Positions 5,077-48,333 of a stretch of 64,000 bases of DNA are shown in pieces (the first letter of the stretch is position 1; the number at the start of each line of letters is the position of its first letter). The position numbers and the translations under genes were made by a program. Under the pieces are notes generated by a model that was not told the origin of the DNA, ran no database searches, and saw nothing but the letters and a program-made list of their open reading frames with translations. The DNA lies in assembly GCF_027744825.2 (NCBI RefSeq), contig NC_071340.1:1061501-1125500 (forward strand), given 5' to 3'. This DNA comes from Synchiropus splendidus. Its lineage: Eukaryota > Chordata > Actinopteri > Syngnathiformes > Callionymidae.

Positions 5077-8000
5077 TTTAACCTCCCACTATAGCAGAAA
5101 GGGTCTTTCTAGTAGTTGCACATCAAATCTAAACTGTCTGAAGTGTTTTTCCAAAGTTATTAACACTTTTATGTTTGGCGTTCCGAAACCCACCTTATCT
5201 CAGGCTGAAAAGCGTTTTTGTGCATTGTGCCATAACTTTTCAGGGAAGCTTCAGAACATGAAATTTTAACCTCCCACTATAGCAGAAAGGGTCTTTCTAG
5301 TAGTTGCACATCAAATCTAAACTGTCTGAAGTGTTTTTCCAAAGTAATCAACACTTTTATGTTTGGCGTTCCGAAACCCACCTTATCTCAGGCTGAAAAG
5401 CGTTTTTGTGCATTGTGCCATAACTTTTCAGGGAAGCTTCAGAACATGAAATTTTAACCTCCCACTATAGCAGAAAGGGTCTTTCTAGTAGTTGCACATC
5501 AAATCTAAGCTGTCTGAAGTGTTTTTCAAAAGTTATCAACACTTTTATGTTTGGCGTTCCGAAACCCACCTTATCTCAGGCTGAAAAGCGTTTTTGTGCA
5601 TTGTGCCATAACTTTTCAGGAAAGCTTCAGAACATGAAATTTTAACCTCCCACTATAGCAGAAAGGGTCTTTCTAGTAGTTGCACATCAAATCTAAACTG
5701 TCTGAAGTGTTTTTCAAAAGTTATCAACACTTTTATGTTTGGCGTTCCGAAACCCACCTTATCTCAGGCTGAAAAGCGTTTTTGTGCATTGTGCCATAAC
5801 CTTTCAGGAAAGCTTCAGAACATGAAATTTTAACCTCCCACTATAGCAGAAAGGGTCTTTCTAGTAGTTGCACATCAAATCTAAACTGTCTGAAGTGTTT
5901 TTGAAAAGTTATCAACACTTTTATGTTAGGCGTTCCGAAACCCACCTTATCTCAGGCTGAAAAGCGTTTTTACGCATTGTGCCATAACTTTTCAGGGAAG
6001 CTTCAGAACATGAAATTTTAACCTCCCACTATAGCAGAAAGGGTCTTTCTAGTAGGTGCACATCAAATCTAAGCTCTCTGAAGTGTTTTTCAAAAGTTAT
6101 CAACACTTTTATGTTTGGCGTTCCGAAACACACCTTATCTCAGGCAGAAAAGCGTTTTTGTGCATTGTGCCATAACTTTTCAGGGAAGCTTCAGAACATG
6201 AAATTTTAACCTCCCACTATAGCAGAAAGGGTCTTTCTAGTAGTTGCACATCAAATCTAAACTGTCTGAAGTGTTTCTCCAAAGTTATTAACACTTTTAT
6301 GTTTGGCGTTCCGAAACCCACCTTATCTCAGGCTGAAAAGCGTTTTTACGCATTGTGCCATAACTTTTCAGGGAAGCTTCAGAACATGAAATTTTAACCA
6401 CATCAAATCTAAACTGTCTGAAGTGTTTTTCCAAAGTAATCAACACTTTTATGTTTGGCGTTCCGAAACCCACCTTATCTCAGGCTGAAAAGCGTTTTTG
6501 TGCATTGTGCCATAACTTTTCAGGGAAGCTTCAGAACATGAAATTTTAACCTCCCACTATAGCAGAAAGGGTCTTTCTAGTAGTTGCACATCAAATCTAA
6601 GCTGTCTGAAGTGTTTTTCAAAAGTTATCAACACTTTTATGTCTGGCGTTCCGAAACCCACCTTATCTCAGGCTGAAAAGCGTTTTTGTGCATTGTGCCA
6701 TAACTTTTCAGGAAAGCTTCAGAACATGAAATTTTAACCTCCCACTATAGCAGAAAGGGTCTTTCTAGTAGTTGCACATCAAATCTAAACTGTCTGAAGT
6801 GTTTTTCAAAAGTTATCAACACTTTTATGTTTGGCGTTCCGAAACCCACCTTATCTCAGGCTGAAAAGCGTTTTTACGCATTGTGCCATAACTTTTCAGG
6901 GAAGCTTCAGAACATGAAATTTTAACCTCCCACTATAGCAGAAAGGGTCTTTCTAGTAGTTGCACATCAAATCTAAACTGTCTGAAGTGTTTTTCCAAAG
7001 TTATCAACACTTTTATGTTTGGCGTTCCGAAACCCACCTTATCTCAGGCTGAAAAGCGTTTTTACGCATTGTGCCATAACTTTTCAGGGAAGCTTCAGAA
7101 CATGAAATTTTAAGCTCCCACTATACCAGAAAGGGTCTTTCTAGTAGGTGCACATCAAATCTAAGCTCTCTGAAGTGTTTTTCGAAAGTTATCAACACTT
7201 TTATGTTTGGCGTTCCGAAACCCACCTTATCTCAGGCTGAAAAGCGTTTTTGTGCATTGTGCCATAACTTTTCAGGGAAGCTTCAGAACATGAAATTTTA
7301 ACCTCCCACTATAGCAGAAAGGGTCTTTCTAGTAGTTGCACATCAAATCTAAACTGTCTGAAGTGTTTTTCCAAAGTTATCAACACTTTTATGTTTGGCG
7401 TTCCGAAACCCACCTTATCTCAGGCTGAAAAGCGTTTTTGTGCATTGTGCCATAACTTTTCAGGGAAGCTTCAGAACATGACATTTTAACCTCCCACTAT
7501 AGCAGAAAGGGTCTTTCTAGTAGTTGCACATCAAATCTAAACTGTCTGAAGTGTTTTTCCAAAGTTATTAACACTTTTATGTTTGGCGTTCCGAAACCCA
7601 CCTTATCTCAGGCTGAAAAGCGTTTTTGTGCATTGTGCCATAACTTTTCAGGGAAGCTTCAGAACATGAAATTTTAACCTCCCACTATAGCAGAAAGGGT
7701 CTTTCTAGTAGTTGCACATCAAATCTAAACTGTCTGAAGTGTTTTTCCAAAGTAATCAACACTTTTATGTTTGGCGTTCCGAAACCCACCTTATCTCAGG
7801 CTGAAAAGCGTTTTTGTGCATTGTGCCATAACTTTTCAGGGAAGCTTCAGAACATGAAATTTTAACCTCCCACTATAGCAGAAAGGGTCTTTCTAGTAGT
7901 TGCACATCAAATCTAAGCTGTCTGAAGTGTTTTTCAAAAGTTATCAACACTTTTATGTTTGGCGTTCCGAAACCCACCTTATCTCAGGCTGAAAAGCGTT

Positions 8001-38694: not shown

Positions 38695-41528
38695 TTTAAC
38701 CTCCCACTATAGCAGAAAGGGTCTTTCTAGTAGGTGCACATCAAATCTAAGCTCTCTGAAGTGTTTTTCGAAAGTTATCAACACTTTTATGTTTGGCGTT
38801 CCGAAACCCACCTTATCTCAGGCTGAAAAGTGTTTTTGTGCATTGTGCCATAACTTTTCAGGAAAGCTTCAGAACATGAAATTTTAACCTCCCACTATAG
38901 CAGAAAGGGTCTTTCTAGTAGTTGCACATCAAATCTAAACTGTCTGAAGTGTTTTTCCAAAGTTATCAACACTTTTATGTTTGGCGTTCCGAAACCCACC
39001 TTATCTCAGGCTGAAAAGCGTTTTTACGCATTGTGCCATAACTTTTCAGGGAAGCTTCAGAACATGAAATTTTAACCTCCCACTATAGCAGAAAGGGTCT
39101 TTCTAGTAGGTGCACATCAAATCTAAGCTCTCTGAAGTGTTTTTCGAAAGTTATCAACACTTTTATGTTTGGCGTTCCGAAACCCACCTTATCTCAGGCT
39201 GAAAAGCGTTTTTGTGCATTGTGCCATAACTTTTCAGGAAAGCTTCAGAACATGAAATTTTAACCTCCCACTATAGCAGAAAGTGTCTTTCTAGTAGTTG
39301 CACATCAAATCTAAGCTGTCTGAAGTGTTTTTCTAAAGTTATCAACACTTTTATGTTTGGCGTTCCGAAACCCACCTTATCTCAGGCTGAAAAGCGTTTT
39401 TGTGCATTGTGCCATAACTTTTCAGGAAAGCTTCAGAACATGAAATTTTAACCTCCCACTAAAGCAGAAAGGGTCTTTCTAGTAGTTGCACATCAAATCC
39501 AAACTGTCTGAAGTGTTTTTCCAAAGTTATCAACACTTTTATGTTTGGCGTTCCGAAACCCACCTTATCTCAGGCTGAAAAGCGTTTTTACGCATTGTGC
39601 CATAACTTTTCAGGGAAGCTTCAGAACATGAAATTTTAGCCTCCCACTATAGCAGAAAGGGTCTTTCTAGTAGGTGCACATCAAATCTAAGCTCTCTGAA
39701 GTGTTTTTCGAAAGTTATCAACACTTTTATGTTTGGCGTTCCGAAACCCACCTTATCTCAGGCTGAAAAGCGTTTTTGTGCATTGTGCCATAACTTTTCA
39801 GGGAAGCTTCAGAACATGAAATTTTAACCTCCCACTATAGCAGAAAGGGTCTTTCTAGTAGTTGCACATCAAATCTAAACTGTCTGAAGTGTTTTTCCAA
39901 AGTTATTAACACTTTTATGTTTGGCGTTCCGAAACCCACCTTATCTCAGGCTGAAAAGCGTTTTTGTGCATTGTGCCATAACTTTTCAGGGAAGCTTCAG
40001 AACATGAAATTTTAACCTCCCACTATAGCAGAAAGGGTCTTTCTAGTAGTTGCACATCAAATCTAAACTGTCTGAAGTGTTTTTCCAAAGTTATCAACAC
40101 TTTTATGTTTGGCGTTCCGAAACCCACCTTATCTCAGGCTGAAAAGCGTTTTTGTGCATTGTGCCATAACTTTTCAGGGAAGCTTCAGAACATGAAATTT
40201 TAACCTCCCACTATAGCAGAAAGGGTCTTTCTAGTAGGTGCACATCAAATCTAAGCTCTCTGAAGTGTTTTTCGAAAGTTATCAACACTTTTATGTTTGG
40301 CGTTCCGAAACCCACCTTATCTCAGGCTGAAAAGTGTTTTTGTGCATTGTGCCATAACTTTTCAGGAAAGCTTCAGAACATGAAATTTTAACCTCCCACT
40401 ATAGCAGAAAGGGTCTTTCTAGTAGTTGCACATCAAATCTAAACTGTCTGAAGTGTTTTTCCAAAGTTATCAACACTTTTATGTTTGGCGTTCCGAAACC
40501 CACCTTATCTCAGGCTGAAAAGCGTTTTTACGCATTGTGCCATAACTTTTCAGGGAAGCTTCAGAACATGAAATTTTAACCTCCCACTATAGCAGAAAGG
40601 GTCTTTCTAGTAGGTGCACATCAAATCTAAGCTCTCTGAAGTGTTTTTCGAAAGTTATCAACACTTTTATGTTTGGCGTTCCGAAACCCACCTTATCTCA
40701 GGCTGAAAAGCGTTTTTGTGCATTGTGCCATAACTTTTCAGGAAAGCTTCAGAACATGAAATTTTAACCTCCCACTATAGCAGAAAGTGTCTTTCTATTA
40801 GTTGCACATCAAATCTAAGCTGTCTGAAGTGTTTTTCTAAAGTTATCAACACTTTTATGTTTGGCGTTCCGAAACCCACCTTATCTCAGGCTGAAAAGCG
40901 TTTTTGTGCATTGTGCCATAACTTTTCAGGAAAGCTTCAGAACATGAAATTTTAACCTCCCACTAAAGCAGAAAGGGTCTTTCTAGTAGTTGCACATCAA
41001 ATCCAAACTGTCTGAAGTGTTTTTCCAAAGTTATCAACACTTTTATGTTTGGCGTTCCGAAACCCACCTTATCTCAGGCTGAAAAGCGTTTTTACGCATT
41101 GTGCCATAACTTTTCAGGGAAGCTTCAGAACATGAAATTTTAGCCTCCCACTATAGCAGAAAGGGTCTTTCTAGTAGGTGCACATCAAATCTAAGCTCTC
41201 TGAAGTGTTTTTCGAAAGTTATCAACACTTTTATGTTTGGCGTTCCGAAACCCACCTTATCTCAGGCTGAAAAGCGTTTTTGTGCATTGTGCCATAACTT
41301 TTCAGGGAAGCTTCAGAACATGAAATTTTAACCTCCCACTATAGCAGAAAGGGTCTTTCTAGTAGTTGCACATCAAATCTAAACTGTCTGAAGTGTTTTT
41401 CCAAAGTTATTAACACTTTTATGTTTGGCGTTCCGAAACCCACCTTATCTCAGGCTGAAAAGCGTTTTTGTGCATTGTGCCATAACTTTTCAGGGAAGCT
41501 TCAGAACATGAAATTTTAACCTCCCACT
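38695..41528. repeat. 8-monomer higher-order repeat (1504 bp)
   Basis: Copy 1 (38695-40198) has the order beta, alpha, beta, gamma', alpha, beta, delta, alpha'. Copy 2 (from 40199) repeats the first seven types and is followed by the monomer that the retroelement interrupts. The rare changes AAAAGTGTTTTTG (38831/40335), CTAAAGCAG (39461/40965) and AATCCAAAC (39498/41002) are all 1504 bp apart. Part of the same unit reappears on the other side of the element at about 51154-51900. The site equivalent to the insertion in copy 1 (about 40025) is intact. Positions 34747-38694 hold satellite monomers without a clear unit. Confidence 0.82.
41524..41528 (+). repeat. Target-site duplication, left copy (CCACT)
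   Basis: The 5-bp CCACT directly before the element is repeated directly after it at 45337-45341. Removing the element and one copy restores an intact satellite monomer, which identifies both element boundaries to the base. A 5-bp duplication is usual for Ty3/Gypsy integrases. Confidence 0.95.
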
Positions 41529-41657
41529 TGTCATGGCTCCGCTTCCAGGCTCCTAGTCCTGGTTTTGCTTCTCTCCCTCTGTTTCCTTTGGCACACGGCT
41601 GGAGCCGATTACCCCCTGATTACGGTCTTCAAGAACACCTGGGCTCCAGCAACGTGT

Positions 41658-41668
41658 GCCAGATCGTT
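41658..41668 (+). promoter_or_regulatory. Putative self-primer / transcript 5' end in the LTR
   Basis: GCCAGATCGTT at this position is the exact reverse complement of 42289-42299, just inside the 5' LTR. In Tf1/Sushi-group elements the first 11 nt or so of the transcript fold back on the primer-binding site and prime minus-strand synthesis instead of a tRNA. If that holds here, transcription starts at or near 41658. The same 11-mer is in the 3' LTR at 44743-44753. No TATA box lies just upstream. Confidence 0.65.
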
Positions 41669-41772
41669 GTGTCTTTGTTTCCTGCCACTTCTCCTAGTCC
41701 CTGTGTGTTTCCACGTTCCCTATGGTGATTCCTGTGATTTTGGACTCCTCTCGATCCCCTGTGGTAACTCCC

Positions 41773-41909
41773 GGTTCTCGTGTCTCTCCCTGTGTTCGGC
41801 TTCTGCGGTTCTCGTGTCTCTCCCTGTGTTCGGCTTCTGCGGTTCTCGTGTCTCTCCCTGTGTTCGGCTTCTGCGGTTCTTGTGTCTCTCTCCCTGTGTT
41901 CGGCTTTTA
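41773..41909 (+). repeat. 34-bp tandem repeat inside the 5' LTR
   Basis: Units start at 41773, 41807, 41841 and 41875 with GGTTCTCG (GGTTCTTG in the last, which also carries an extra CT). The 3' LTR has only the first and last of these. The middle units are therefore a local expansion in the 5' LTR or a loss from the 3' LTR. Confidence 0.9.
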
Positions 41910-42171
41910 CTTCTGTGCTCTTGCTAGTTCTTTTGTTACATTGTTTAACCCTGCTGTCCTGAGTTAGTGTTTTTTGGTTTCTTGCTGTTTGCCGCGTGTT
42001 TCTTGGTTTTCTTTTGTAGTTTATTCTCGGTTTTCATTTGTGATTTAAGTTCATTTAACTCCCGGTTCGGTGACGCTTTCTGTTAGTTTCATTACTGTTT
42101 TTACACTTTGCGTTTGCTCTGTTTCTTCCCGGTTCGGTGACGCTTTCTGTTCTATTTTAGTTTGTTTAATT

Positions 42172-42177
42172 ATTAAA
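42172..42177 (+). promoter_or_regulatory. Possible polyadenylation signal ATTAAA (5' LTR copy)
   Basis: ATTAAA is a common variant of the vertebrate polyadenylation signal. The functional copy would be the one in the 3' LTR at 45222-45227. It lies in an AT-rich stretch that also contains TTTATAA (42183-42189), so the same segment could alternatively be a TATA box, which would move the transcription start and argue against the self-priming model. Confidence 0.35.
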
Positions 42178-42288
42178 TATTATTTATAACTCCGTCCTGC
42201 CTCCAGTGCCTTTCACCACTCGCACTTGGGTCTTGGTCACGTCCTCCTACGTGGCTTTAGCTCCCTCGTCCCTTTGACTCGTGACAGA

Positions 42289-42299
42289 AACGATCTGGC
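42289..42299 (+). promoter_or_regulatory. Primer-binding site, complementary to own LTR
   Basis: AACGATCTGGC lies two bases after the end of the 5' LTR, where the primer-binding site of an LTR retrotransposon belongs. It does not begin with TGG as a conventional tRNA-primed site does at the LTR edge. Instead it pairs perfectly over 11 nt with 41658-41668. The next outward bases on either side do not pair. Confidence 0.65.
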
Positions 42300-42306
42300 C
42301 ATAATT

Positions 42307-44979
42307 ATGGACCCAGCAGTGGTGAAAGGCTGGCAGGAGGAATTAGACGCTCAGGCCACCAGTATAGGTAATATGGAGAGGATGACTCTGTCCATTTTTG
42401 AGGTGTTGGACTCAATAGCTCAATCAGTCACGCGGCTTTCCTCCCGCTCTGCTATGTCCGGTGTTCCACTTGCTTCTTCTGCTCTTCCGTCGGAGCCAAT
42501 TCTGTCTGTTCCCGTCCGTGATTTTTTTTTTCGTGACTCTTGTGTTTCCCCGTCTTCGCCTCCCGTGGTCTCCGGCGCTGCTCTCAAGCCGCCGCCTCCC
42601 GTGGTCTCCGGCGCTGCTCTCAAGCCGCCGCCTCCCGTGGTCTCCGGCACTGCTCTCAAGCCGCCGCCTCCCGTGGTCTCCGGCGCTGCTCTCAAGCCGC
42701 CGCCTCCCATGGTCTCCGGCGCTGCTCTCCAGCCAGCGGCTCTCCAGCCGCCGCCTCCCGTGGTCTCCGGCGCAGCTCTCAAGCCGGCCCTTCCCGTGGT
42801 CTCCGGCGCAGCTCTCAAGCCGGCCCTTCCCGTGGTCTCGGGCGCAGCTCTCAAGCCGGCGCCTCCCGTGGTCTCCGCCGCAGCTCTCAAGCCGGCGCCT
42901 CCCGTGGTCTCCGCCGCAGCTCTCAAGCCGGCGCCTCCCGTGGTCTCCGCCGCAGCTCTCAAGCCGGCGCCTCCCGTGGTCCCCGGCGCTGCTCTCAAGC
43001 CGGCGTCTCCCGTGGTCTCCGGCGCGGCCCTCCAGCCAGCGGCTCTCCAGCTGGCGCCTCCCCAGCCGGCGCCTCCCGTGTCTTCCGGCGCGGCTCTCCA
43101 GCCGGCGCCTCCCGTGTCTTCCGGCGCGGCTCTCCAGCCGGCGCCTCCCATGGTCTCTGGCGCAGCTCCCCAGCCGGCGCCTTCCCTGGTCTCCGGTGCG
43201 GCTCTCCAGCCGGCGCCTTCCCTGGTCTCCGGTGCGGCTCTCCAGCCGGCGCCTTCCCTGGTCTCTGGCGCGGCTCTCCAGCCGGCGCCTCCCCTGTTTT
43301 CCGGCGCGGCTCTCCAGCCGGCGCCTCCCCTGTTTTCCGGCGCGGCTCTCCAACCGGCGCCTCCCCTGTTTTCCGGCGCGGCTCTCCAGCCGGCGCCTCC
43401 CCTGTTTTCCGGCGCGGCTCTCCAGCCGGCGCCTCCCCTGGTCTCCGGCGCGGCTCTCCAGCCGGCGCCTTCCCTGGTCTCCGGCGCGGCTCTCCAGCCG
43501 GCGCCTCCCCTGTTCTCCGGCGCAGCTCTCCAGCCGGCGCCTCCCCTGGTCAGGCCGCTGCCTCCCAAAAACTCCGGCGCGGTTCCCAAGCCGTCGCCTC
43601 CCGAACCTTCCTGCGCGGCTCCCAGGCCGCCGTCTCCCGATCCTTCCTGTGCGGCTCCCGGGCCGTCTCCTCCCGAGGGCCCCTACGCGGCTCCCGGGCC
43701 GTCTCCTCCCGAGGGCCCCTACGCGGCTCCCGGGCCGTCTCCTCCCGATGGCCCCTACGCGGCTCCCAAGCCGCCGCCGCGGCCTCCCGACGTCTCCAGC
43801 GTGGCTCACACGCCGCCGCCGCCGCGGCCTCCCGACGTCTCCAGCGTGGCTCACAAGCCGCCGCCGCCGCCGCGGCCTCCCGACGTCTCCAGCGTGGCTC
43901 ACAAGCCGCCGCCGCGGCCTCCCGACGTCTCCAGCGTGGCTCACAAGCCGCCGCCGCCGTGGCCTCCCGACGTCTCCAGCGTGGCTCCCAAGTCGCCGCC
44001 GCCGTGGCCTCCCGACGTCTCCAGCGTGGCTCCCAAGTCGCCGCCGCCGTGGCCTCCCGACGTCTCCAGCGCGGCTCCCAAGCCGCCGCCGCCGTGGCCT
44101 CCCGACGTCTCCAGCGCGGCTCCCAAGCCGCCGCCGCCGCCTCCCGACGTCTCCAGCGTGGCTCCCAAGCAGCCGCCGCCGCCTCCCGACGTCTTCAGCG
44201 TGGCTCCCAAGCAGCCGCCGCCGCCTCCCGACGTCTTCAGCGTGGCTCCCAAGCAGCCGCCGCCGCCTCCCGACGTCTTCAGCGTGGCTCCCAAGCAGCC
44301 GCCGCCGCCTCCCGACGTCTTCAGCGTGGCTCCCAAGCCGCCGCCGCCTCCCGACGTCTTCAGCGTGGCTCCCAAGCCGCCGCCGCGGCCTCCCCACGTC
44401 TTCAGCGTGGCTCCCAAGCCGCCGCCGCGGCCTCCCGAAGACCCCAGCCGCAACTTCCCACCCGCCACCTCTCCAGTACCCCAGCTTGTCTTCCGGGTCG
44501 CTGCAGCCCGGCTCTTCCAGTCGCTCCAATGGGCCTCCTCCTCCCCTCGTCTACGACGACCGTCCATCCAGGACTGGTGGAACACCAAGAGGTGTTCTTT
44601 AAGGGGGGGGTACTGTCATGGCTCCGCTTCCAGGCTCCTAGTCCTGGTTTTGCTTCTCTCCCTCTGTTTCCTTTGGCACACGGCTGGAGCCGATTACCCC
44701 CTGATTACGGTCTTCAAGAACACCTGGGCTCCAGCAACGTGTGCCAGATCGTTGTGTCTTTGTTTCCTGCCACTTCTCCTAGTCCCTGTGTGTTTCCACG
44801 TTCCCTATGGTGATTCCTGTGATTTTGGACTCCTCTCGATCCCCTGTGGTAACTCCCGGTTCTCGTGTCTCTCCCTGTGTTCGGCTTCTGCGGTTCTTGT
44901 GTCTCTCTCCCTGTGTTCGGCTTTTACTTCTGTGCTCTTGCTAGTTCTTTTGTTACATTGTTTAACCCTGCTGTCCTGA
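42307..44979 (+). CDS. Gag-like N-terminus fused to Pro/Ala-rich repeat protein
   Basis: I chose ATG 42307 (MDPAVVKGW...) because it is the first start after the primer-binding site and resembles the MDP start of Sushi-type gag proteins. The frame is also open upstream into the LTR to 42226. Residues 1 to about 86 form a short non-repetitive head with a likely helical stretch (about 9-45). Residues from 87 are three repeat arrays: 26 units of a 12-residue SGAALxP motif, 6 units of another 12-residue motif, and 15 units of a 13-16-residue DVxSVAPK-poly-Pro motif. A tail follows that reads through the polypurine tract into the 3' LTR, where it is hydrophobic and Cys-rich before the stop at 44979. 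No capsid major-homology region, CCHC knuckle or pol domain is visible. The other two forward frames are also open across the repeats, so coding of this exact product is uncertain. It may bind element RNA or be non-functional. Confidence 0.5.
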   Translation: MDPAVVKGWQEELDAQATSIGNMERMTLSIFEVLDSIAQSVTRLSSRSAMSGVPLASSALPSEPILSVPVRDFFFRDSCVSPSSPPVVSGAALKPPPPVVSGAALKPPPPVVSGTALKPPPPVVSGAALKPPPPMVSGAALQPAALQPPPPVVSGAALKPALPVVSGAALKPALPVVSGAALKPAPPVVSAAALKPAPPVVSAAALKPAPPVVSAAALKPAPPVVPGAALKPASPVVSGAALQPAALQLAPPQPAPPVSSGAALQPAPPVSSGAALQPAPPMVSGAAPQPAPSLVSGAALQPAPSLVSGAALQPAPSLVSGAALQPAPPLFSGAALQPAPPLFSGAALQPAPPLFSGAALQPAPPLFSGAALQPAPPLVSGAALQPAPSLVSGAALQPAPPLFSGAALQPAPPLVRPLPPKNSGAVPKPSPPEPSCAAPRPPSPDPSCAAPGPSPPEGPYAAPGPSPPEGPYAAPGPSPPDGPYAAPKPPPRPPDVSSVAHTPPPPRPPDVSSVAHKPPPPPRPPDVSSVAHKPPPRPPDVSSVAHKPPPPWPPDVSSVAPKSPPPWPPDVSSVAPKSPPPWPPDVSSAAPKPPPPWPPDVSSAAPKPPPPPPDVSSVAPKQPPPPPDVFSVAPKQPPPPPDVFSVAPKQPPPPPDVFSVAPKQPPPPPDVFSVAPKPPPPPDVFSVAPKPPPRPPHVFSVAPKPPPRPPEDPSRNFPPATSPVPQLVFRVAAARLFQSLQWASSSPRLRRPSIQDWWNTKRCSLRGGYCHGSASRLLVLVLLLSLCFLWHTAGADYPLITVFKNTWAPATCARSLCLCFLPLLLVPVCFHVPYGDSCDFGLLSIPCGNSRFSCLSLCSASAVLVSLSLCSAFTSVLLLVLLLHCLTLLS
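42565..43545 (+). repeat. 36-bp coding minisatellite (array A)
   Basis: 26 units of 36 bp encode a 12-residue repeat that drifts from VVSGAALKPPPP to LFSGAALQPAPP along the array. Units 5 and 13 carry in-frame additions of 15 and 30 bp. Every length change is a multiple of three. The unit is rich in C, and the neighbouring units are often identical, which indicates local expansion. Confidence 0.9.
43573..43788 (+). repeat. 36-bp coding minisatellite (array B)
   Basis: Six units of 36 bp encode motifs from SGAVPKPSPPEP through SCAAPGPSPPEG to PYAAPKPPPRPP. The unit is related to array A in its AAP core but is clearly a separate expansion, and its last unit leads directly into array C. Confidence 0.85.
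43789..44436 (+). repeat. 39-48-bp coding minisatellite (array C)
   Basis: Fifteen units encode DVSSVAHK or DVFSVAPK followed by five to seven mostly Pro residues. Unit lengths vary by whole CCG or CGG codons (13-16 residues), so the variation comes from trinucleotide slippage inside a larger repeat. Confidence 0.88.
44601..44610 (+). promoter_or_regulatory. Polypurine tract for plus-strand priming
   Basis: AAGGGGGGGG lies three bases before the 3' LTR, where the RNase H-resistant plus-strand primer of LTR retrotransposons sits. A TAA stop in a second reading frame (44600-44602) overlaps its start. Confidence 0.85.
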
Positions 44980-45336
44980 GTTAGTGTTTTTTGGTTTCTT
45001 GCTGTTTGCCGCGTGTTTCTTGGTTTTCTTTTGTAGTTTATTCTCGGTTTTCATTTGTGATTTAAGTTCATTTAACTCCCGGTTCGGTGACGCTTTCTGT
45101 TTTGACTTTTTACAAATTTTTGTGCACTTCTGTTAGTTTCATTACTGTTTTTACACTTTGCGTTTGCTCTGTTTCTTCCCGGTTCGGTGACGCTTTCTGT
45201 TCTATTTTAGTTTGTTTAATTATTAAATATTATTTATAACTCCGTCCTGCCTCCAGTGCCTTTCACCACTCGCACTTGGGTCTTGGTCACGTCCTCCTAC
45301 GTGGCTTTAGCTCCCTCGTCCCTTTGACTCGTGACA
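44614..45336 (+). repeat. 3' long terminal repeat (723 bp)
   Basis: This is the counterpart of 41529-42286, offset by 3085 bp at its start. It has two units of the 34-bp tandem (from 44858 and 44892) instead of four, and keeps a 33-bp piece (45101-45133) that is missing from the 5' LTR. Elsewhere the two copies read the same. Confidence 0.95.
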
Positions 45337-45341
45337 CCACT
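45337..45341 (+). repeat. Target-site duplication, right copy (CCACT)
   Basis: This matches 41524-41528 and is followed at once by ATAGCAG, the normal continuation of the satellite monomer. Confidence 0.95.
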
Positions 45342-48333
45342 ATAGCAGAAAGGGTCTTTCTAGTAGTTGCACATCAAATCTAAGCTGTCTGAAGTGTTTT
45401 TCAAAAGTTATCAACACTTTTATGTTTGGCGTTCCGAAATCCACCTTATCTCAGGCTGAAAAGCGTTTTTGTGCATTGTGCCATAACTTTTCAGGAAAGC
45501 TTCAGAACATGAAATTTTAACGTCCCACTATAGCAGAAAGGGTCTTTCTAGTAGGTGCACATCAAATCTAAGCTGTCTGAAGTGTTTTTCGAAAGTTATC
45601 AACACTTATGTTTGGCGTTCCGAAACCCACCTTATCTCAGGCTGAAAAGCGTTTTTGTGCATTGTGCCATAACTTTTCAGGGAAGCTTCAGAACATGAAA
45701 TTTTAACCTCCCACTATAGCAGAAAGGGTCTTTCTAGTAGTTGCACATCAAATCTAAGCTGTCTGAAGTGTTTTTCTAAAGTTATCAACACTTTTATGTT
45801 TGGCGTTCCGAAACCCACCTTATCTCGGGCTGAAAAGCGTTTTTGTGCATTGTGCCATAACTTTTCAGGAAAGCTTCAGAACATGAAATTTTAACCTCCC
45901 ACTATAGCAGAAAGGGTCTTTCTAGTAGGTGCACATCAAATCTAAGCTCTCTGAAGTGTTTTTCGAAAGTTATCAACACTTTTATGTTTGGCGTTCCGAA
46001 ACCCACCTTATCTCAGGCTGAAAAGCGTTTTTGTGCATTGTGCCATAACTTTTCAGGGAAGCTTCAGAACATGAAATTTTAACCTCCCACTATAGCAGAA
46101 AGGGTCTTTCTAGTAGTTGCACATCAAATCTAAACTGTCTGAAGTGTTTTTCCAAAGTTATTAACACTTTTATGTTTGGCGTTCCGAAACCCACCTTATC
46201 TCAGGCTGAAAAACGTTTTTGTGCATTGTGCCATAACTTTTCAGGGAAGCTTCAGAACATGAAATTTTAACCTCCCACTATAGCAGAAAGGGTCTTTCTA
46301 GTAGTTGCACATCAAATCTAAACTGTCTGAAGTGTTTTTCCAAAGTTATCAACACTTTTATGTTTGGCGTTCCGAAACCCACCTTATCTCAGGCTGAAAA
46401 GCGTTTTTGTGCATTGTGCCATAACTTTTCAGGGAAGCTTCAGAACATGAAATTTTAACCTCCCACTATAGCAGAAAGGGTCTTTCTAGTAGTTGCACAT
46501 CAAATCTAAACTGTCTGAAGTGTTTTTCCAAAGTTATCAACACTTTTATGTTTGGCGTTCCGAAACCCACCTTATCTCAGGCTGAAAAGCGTTTTTGTGC
46601 ATTGTGCCATAACTTTTCAGGGAAGCTTCAGAACATGAAATTTTAACCTGCCACTATAGCAGAAAGGGTCTTTCTAGTAGTTGCACATCAAATCTAAGCT
46701 GTCTGAAGTGTTTTTCAAAAGTTATCAACACTTTTATGTTTGGCGTTCCGAAACCCACCTTATCTCAGGCTGAAAAGCGTTTTTGTGCATTGTGCCATAA
46801 CTTTTCAGGAAAGCTTCAGAACATGAAATTTTAACCTCCCACTATAGCAGAAAGGGTCTTTCTAGTAGTTGCACATCAAATCTAAACTGTCTGAAGTGTT
46901 TTTCCAAAGTTATCAACACTTTTATGTTTGGCGTTCCGAAACCCACCTTATCTCAGGCTGAAAAGCGTTTTTACGCATTGTGCCATAACTTTTCAGGGAA
47001 GCTTCAGAACATGAAATTTTAACCTCCCACTATAGCAGAAAGGGTCTTTCTAGTAGGTGCACATCAAATCTAAGCTCTCTGAAGTGTTTTTCGAAAGTTA
47101 TCAACACTTTTATGTTTGGCGTTCCGAAACCCACCTTATCTCAGGCTGAAAAGCGTTTTTGTGCATTGTGCCATAACTTTTCAGGAAAGCTTCAGAACAT
47201 GAAATTTTAACCTCCCACTATAGCAGAAAGGGTCTTTCTAGTAGTTGCACATCAAATCTAAACTGTCTGAAGTGTTTTTCCAAAGTTATCAACACTTTTA
47301 TGTTTGGCGTTCCGAAACCCACCTTATCTCAGGCTGAAAAGCGTTTTTACGCATTGTGCCATAACTTTTCAGGGAAGCTTCAGAACATGAAATTTTAACC
47401 TCCCACTATAGCAGAAAGGGTCTTTCTAGTAGGTGCACATCAAATCTAAGCTCTCTGAAGTGTTTTTCGAAAGTTATCAACACTTTTATGTTTGGCGTTC
47501 CGAAACCCACCTTATCTCAGGCTGAAAAGCGTTTTTGTGCATTGTGCCATAACTTTTCAGGAAAGCTTCAGAACATGAAATTTTAACCTCCCACTATAGC
47601 AGAAAGTGTCTTTCTAGTAGTTGCACATCAAATCTAAGCTGTCTGAAGTGTTTTTCTAAAGTTATCAACACTTTTATGTTTGGCGTTCCGAAACCCACCT
47701 TATCTCAGGCTGAAAAGCGTTTTTGTGCATTGTGCCATAACTTTTCAGGAAAGCTTCAGAACATGAAATTTTAACCTCCCACTATAGCAGAAAGGTTCTT
47801 TCTAGTAGTTGCACATCAAATCTAAACTGTCTGAAGTGTTTTTCCAAAGTTATCAACACTTTTATGTTTGGCGTTCCGAAACCCACCTTATCTCAGGCTG
47901 AAAAGCGTTTTTACGCATTGTGCCATAACTTTTCAGGGAAGCTTCAGAACATGAAATTTTAACCTCCCACTATAGCAGAAAGGGTCTTTCTAGTAGGTGC
48001 ACATCAAATCTAAGCTCTCTGAAGTGTTTTTCGAAAGTTATCAACACTTTTATGTTTGGCGTTCCGAAACCCACCTTATCTCAGGCTGAAAAGCGTTTTT
48101 GTGCATTGTGCCATAACTTTTCAGGGAAGCTTCAGAACATGAAATTTTAACCTCCCACTATAGCAGAAAGGGTCTTTCTAGTAGTTGCACTTCAAATCTA
48201 AACTGTCTGAAGTGTTTTTCCAAAGTTATTAACACTTTTATGTTTGGCGTTCCGAAACCCACCTTATCTCAGGCTGAAAAGCGTTTTTGTGCATTGTGCC
48301 ATAACTTTTCAGGGAAGCTTCAGAACATGAAAT

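Follow-up and report, generated by a model that had tools for sequence, protein, structure and literature searches.

How could a retrotransposon without a recognisable polymerase have its reverse transcription primed? The question is raised by a stretch of 64,000 nucleotides (nt) of Synchiropus splendidus DNA (contig NC_071340.1, positions 1,061,501 to 1,125,500 of the forward strand; the window, numbered here from its first letter), in which Tandem Repeats Finder recovered a satellite array with a unit of 188 base pairs (bp) and a single large insert: a long terminal repeat (LTR) element of 3808 bp at 41529-45336. We regard it as likely that this element is a non-autonomous LTR retrotransposon that inserted recently and whose transcript carries a self-priming leader of the Tf1/sushi type. 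The mechanism of self-priming is already known; a non-autonomous carrier, with a strong stem that brackets the primer-binding site (PBS), is a new case. The features on which the argument turns are:

41529..42286, + strand: 5' LTR, 758 bp, TGTCATGG...CGTGACA
41658..41668, + strand: putative self-primer GCCAGATCGTT, the predicted 5' end of the RNA (match exact)
42289..42299, + strand: PBS AACGATCTGGC, which begins 2 nt past the 5' LTR

Complementarity between the LTR and the primer-binding site

A sequence-only reading of the window had claimed that 11 nt of the LTR match the PBS perfectly and that such a match is very unlikely by chance at that position. Both claims were confirmed. The segment 41658-41668 is the exact reverse complement of 42289-42299; GCCAGATCGTT is present in both LTRs (41658 and 44743), and its reverse complement has a single occurrence in the 64 kb of the window (42289). 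When the LTR was dinucleotide-shuffled, the 13 nt that directly follow it found a complement of at least 11 nt in 5 of 10,000 cases, and in 3 of 5,000 in a second run. When the position was left free and the shuffled LTR was compared with the shuffled internal region (2327 nt), a match of at least 11 nt turned up somewhere in 26 of 300 cases; the weight thus rests on the exact position. The real internal region contains two sites that match the LTR at 11 nt or more, namely the PBS and a 13-nt match at 42318-42330. The latter was rejected as a self-primer target, as it lies 32 nt beyond the LTR end and would yield the wrong LTR ends. As an empirical control we took 109 contig stretches with GACANNAACGATCTGGC: CCAGATCGTT was found within 1500 bp upstream in none of them (0/109), and these stretches were therefore taken as chance matches and not as relatives.

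The frequency of free-floating matches (26/300) is also what speaks for the alternative that the 11-mer is a coincidence and that priming relies on some tRNA, or a fragment of one, that has gone unrecognised. We consider this very unlikely, given the rarity of the match at the PBS position (5/10,000) and given that the bracketing stem described below would need a second coincidence. Moreover, the first 9 nt past the LTR contain no tRNA-type TGG; the first TGG appears only at 42296, the tenth base, and the 20 nt that start there misfit the conserved positions of a tRNA T-arm (compared by hand). No tRNA gene was predicted within the window (bacterial settings). The interpretation given in the sequence-only reading is upheld in part: self-priming is well supported, by the position and rarity of the match, by the bracketing duplex between LTR and gag start and by the lack of an early TGG, and the start at 41658 and the partner element are predictions; the points that speak against self-priming are collected below.

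A predicted stem that brackets the primer-binding site

42191..42233, + strand: U5 arm of the bracketing stem, 13-nt core at 42208-42220
42309..42341, + strand: gag-start arm of the bracketing stem, 13-nt core at 42318-42330, overlapping the first codons after the ATG at 42307
42172..42177, + strand: ATTAAA, likely poly(A) signal, the sole AATAAA/ATTAAA in the LTR

The longest complement between the LTR and the internal region is the 13-nt pair 42208-42220 with 42318-42330, the two halves of which lie on either side of the PBS; an equivalent was found in 9 of 20,000 shuffles (last 90 nt of the LTR versus first 50 internal nt). The predicted stem consists of helices of 3, 7, 13, 2 and 7 bp that enclose the PBS, and the fold of 42186-42345 has an energy of -65.5 kcal/mol (z -5.29; equally stable shuffles 0/200). 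Its U5 arm lies just past the ATTAAA at 42172 and its other arm covers the first twelve codons of the gag-like frame.

The primer/PBS duplex and the bracketing stem could not be folded together, because they cross as a pseudoknot, which RNAfold cannot draw. Only for an RNA ended at 42310 were primer/PBS pair probabilities of 0.66-1.0 obtained. Leaving primer and PBS unpaired costs 8.3 kcal/mol (from -159.8 to -151.5), versus the -17.7 kcal/mol of the primer/PBS duplex; since the cost is smaller than the gain, it is plausible from these modelled energies that both duplexes form together, before any pseudoknot penalty is counted.

Transcription start and the weighing of self-priming

Self-priming predicts that transcription starts at 41658 and thus that U3 is 129 nt long; with the end of R placed near 42199 (a chosen value), R would measure 542 nt and U5 87 nt. 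Alternatively, transcription could start downstream, near 42213, driven by the TTTATAA at 42183, so that the 11-mer would fall outside the 5' end of the RNA. The TTTATA at 42183 is indeed the sole TATA-like match in the LTR (three motifs tried), but a start near 42213 would leave no AATAAA/ATTAAA in R or U5, and we rate it as quite unlikely. In the LTR model of Sushi elements the AATAAA lies unusually close to the 3' end (PMC3601003), and these LTRs also contain an AT-rich, possibly TATA-like stretch (PMC3601003), for which no counterpart was placed here. The AT-rich stretch around 42183 may be read as a 3' processing signal rather than a promoter, because it adjoins the only AATAAA/ATTAAA and because the Sushi signal is near the LTR 3' end.

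Several observations weigh against self-priming from 41658. None of the three TATA-like motifs tried in the LTR was found upstream of this position, and an initiator-like GCCAGA (consensus BBCABW; 8 matches in the LTR) places +1 at 41661, which would cut the primer to 8 nt. The third duplex expected from Tf1 is weak, with a 4-bp helix (TGTC 41670-41673 with GACA 42283-42286) and a 3-bp helix, which together bring the energy of the primer duplex down from -17.7 to -25.1 kcal/mol. When a fold from 41658 extended over the gag-start arm, RNAfold favoured the bracketing stem and gave a primer/PBS probability of 0.0 (3/3 longer folds). Finally, SM-Tcn1, of the Tcn1 clade, is described as showing evidence of neither tRNA priming nor self-priming (PMC2864245).

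A young element

44614..45336, + strand: 3' LTR, 723 bp, also TGTCATGG...CGTGACA
44601..44610, + strand: polypurine tract (PPT) AAGGGGGGGG, followed by TAC and then the 3' LTR
45337..45341, + strand: target-site duplication CCACT (5 nt), with its other copy at 41524-41528, within the 188-bp satellite

The insert has the hallmarks of an LTR retrotransposon: two TG...CA LTRs, a PPT and a target duplication. Its termini are clean, and the empty site matches the satellite unit, its 28-nt core being present 250 times. The two LTRs show no mismatch in 690 aligned columns and the copy is therefore a young insertion. The 5' LTR has an extra 68 nt (two 34-nt units) and the 3' LTR an extra 33 nt; these two indels are perhaps due to slippage in reverse transcription.

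Alternatively, the element could be a dead deletion product of one-off template switching, with leader signals left over from an autonomous parent and no trans-mobilised family behind it. In favour of this, the analysis covered one copy and found no partner, and LTR indels of 68 and 33 nt without substitutions could reflect such switching. The mismatch-free LTRs, the 5-nt target duplication and the clean ends, however, point to a recent and complete round of reverse transcription and integration, and the leader signals therefore probably worked at least once; we consider the alternative unlikely.

The indels were located to a copy difference of the 34-nt tandem unit (41772-41906 versus 44857-44923) and to 45095-45128, where the 33 nt lie between TTCTGTT repeats. 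A 24-nt motif, CCCGGTTCGGTGACGCTTTCTGTT, occurs twice per LTR (42061 and 42128; 45078 and 45178). Elsewhere in the satellite array, at 6247-6551, the period is 152 nt, i.e. the unit is 36 nt short.

Coding content

42307..44976, + strand: open frame with a gag-like start, a proline-rich minisatellite and a tail into the 3' LTR; sub-cut-off proline-rich match in Pfam only

The start of this frame is presumably gag-like, a label that follows from its position and for which the databases gave no homology support. The interior (42557-44438) is filled with proline-rich minisatellites of 36- and 42-nt units, across which several frames are open on both strands; the length of the main frame does not argue for coding, because four other frames of more than 380 amino acids overlap it. 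Pfam returned for the main frame only PF06346 (Drf_FH1; E 5.4e-9, 36.5 bits at a cut-off of 40), a proline-rich match. Ten further stop-to-stop frames gave two sub-cut-off matches, PF23348 and PF14642, in one minus-strand frame, which were taken as compositional. The lack of pol that the sequence-only reading had assumed was thus borne out by Pfam for 11 of the 20 stop-to-stop frames, in which no retroelement domain was found, the other nine (61 to 89 amino acids) lying outside the scan. As no retroelement domain was recovered and the copy is young, the element probably moved in trans. The retained gag-like start is best read as having an RNA function rather than a protein function, because the stem arm spans its first twelve codons.

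Proposed course of priming

Transcription would begin at or near 41658, and the U5/gag-start stem (42191-42233 with 42309-42341) is predicted to hold the PBS in its loop. By analogy with Tf1, the first 11 nt of the RNA would then form a pseudoknot with the PBS; a partner's reverse transcriptase would supply the RNase H for a cut after base 11, and from the 3' end so released synthesis would run into U5. The first two bases copied would be the 2-nt spacer between LTR and PBS; the cDNA primed at 42288 would hence end two bases past the CA, and the partner's integrase may trim these two bases back to it. Read outward, both element ends carry TGACA/G, with TAC between the G-run and the TG at the 3' LTR, and a 2-nt trimming by integrase would fit this sequence at both ends.

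A young element without a recognisable polymerase that keeps primer, PBS and stem suggests which parts of the leader are needed in cis; it also suggests that a reverse transcriptase of the Tf1/sushi group can act on the RNA of another element, and it makes a retained gag start explicable as an RNA arm.

A U3 hairpin that reaches into the 11-mer

41587..41663, + strand: U3 hairpin, 20 pairs and a 2-nt bulge, the 3' arm of which runs through bases 1-6 of the 11-mer
44672..44748, + strand: copy of the U3 hairpin in the 3' LTR, with 44743-44748 paired in the fold of 44560-44800

Among the 80-nt stretches of the LTR, the one from 41585 has the most stable fold (-37.6 kcal/mol), a stability that was reached by none of 400 shuffles of the LTR and none of 300 local shuffles; when the 93-nt hairpin piece itself was shuffled, one in 200 was as stable (z -3.56). 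As part of the 5' leader this hairpin was rejected, for it lies upstream of the predicted start. In a fold of an RNA begun at 41588 it would cover the primer, and in the 3' LTR the paired bases 44743-44748 are the start of the second copy of the 11-mer. With a start at 41658 the hairpin would be present only at the 3' end of the RNA, and it is there alone that it could hide a copy of the primer. We tentatively raise the possibility, which we consider doubtful, that the element thereby has a built-in primer choice: the 11-mer would lie in R at both RNA ends, the first six bases of the 3' copy being paired in the U3 hairpin and the 5' copy being free for the PBS. If true, priming and the RNase H cut would be confined to the correct RNA end, and the U3 hairpin and the U5/gag-start stem would form an asymmetric masking switch that was kept though the proteins were discarded. 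This is a testable idea of how the RNA could distinguish between its two identical copies of the primer. Alternatively, the hairpin may be a promoter dyad, or simply a palindrome of no significance. A comparable primer-masking switch was not found in the titles and partial texts of the literature searched.

Search for relatives

The exact 20-mer across the LTR end and the PBS had no match (0) in viral contigs. The pattern of the PPT/LTR junction was recovered in 6 stretches of viral contigs and in 25 of genome contigs, which were rejected as relatives, because no 18-mer of the following 200 nt recurred upstream in any of them (31/31). Against the protein collection, neither the gag-like start (residues 1-72; 55 candidates) nor the tail (residues 710-800; 320 candidates) gave a match at E <= 10; likewise there was no match of the gag-like start in PDB, of the gag-like start and the tail in NCBIfam, of 41400-45500 in Rfam, or of 41529-42400 in a distant blastn against phages. 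No partner element was seen, and the partner is postulated. A text search of the literature with 10-mers of the primer site gave no retrotransposon title among the matches listed, and no title on a non-autonomous self-priming element was found in the literature searched, which consisted mostly of papers free of subscription.

Comparison with known systems

In retroviruses, pairings between U5 and the leader and between U5 and the AUG are known, and priming is by tRNA, with no self-primer. The element resembles them in the predicted pairing of its U5 with a stretch close to the gag start.

The closest counterpart is Tf1 of Schizosaccharomyces pombe, the founder of self-priming, which is likewise an LTR retrotransposon with an 11-nt primer complementary to a PBS just behind the LTR, and with a duplex between the LTR and the PBS flank. 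In Tf1 the PBS pairs with the first 11 bases, and the RNase H cut falls between bases 11 and 12 (PMC7175516); the leader forms a 'pretzel' of three duplexes, a central one of self-primer and PBS and flanking ones of PBS-adjacent sequence with the LTR, an arrangement that several further Tf1/sushi elements are described as able to adopt, self-priming being common to the group (PMC10085805). Here we found a segment of the LTR that is complementary to the PBS following the 5' LTR (11 nt, exact), one strong predicted flanking duplex (13-nt core, z -5.29) and, in place of the third duplex present in Tf1, a weak one of only 4 + 3 bp. Tf1 encodes Gag, protease, reverse transcriptase and integrase, whereas no such domain was found in the frames scanned here; conversely, a U3 hairpin over the primer copy is present here and is not mentioned for Tf1 in those portions of the published text that were available.

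Self-priming is established for Tf1 and has been deduced from sequence for its vertebrate relatives. The self-priming group is reported from vertebrates (PMC10085805, PMC6317226), e.g. sushi-ichi of Takifugu, and the likely poly(A) signal of the present element, like that of the Sushi LTR model (PMC3601003), lies close to the 3' end of the LTR. The vertebrate Tf1/sushi elements are autonomous, unlike the element described here. With the TRIM-type elements, on the other hand, it shares the loss of coding capacity and the retention of LTRs, PBS and PPT (PMC6934838). TRIM elements are shorter than 1 kb and have a tRNA-type PBS (PMC6934838); the present element, in which no tRNA-type PBS was found, measures 3.8 kb (3808 bp) and combines a self-priming-type PBS with a proline-rich minisatellite.
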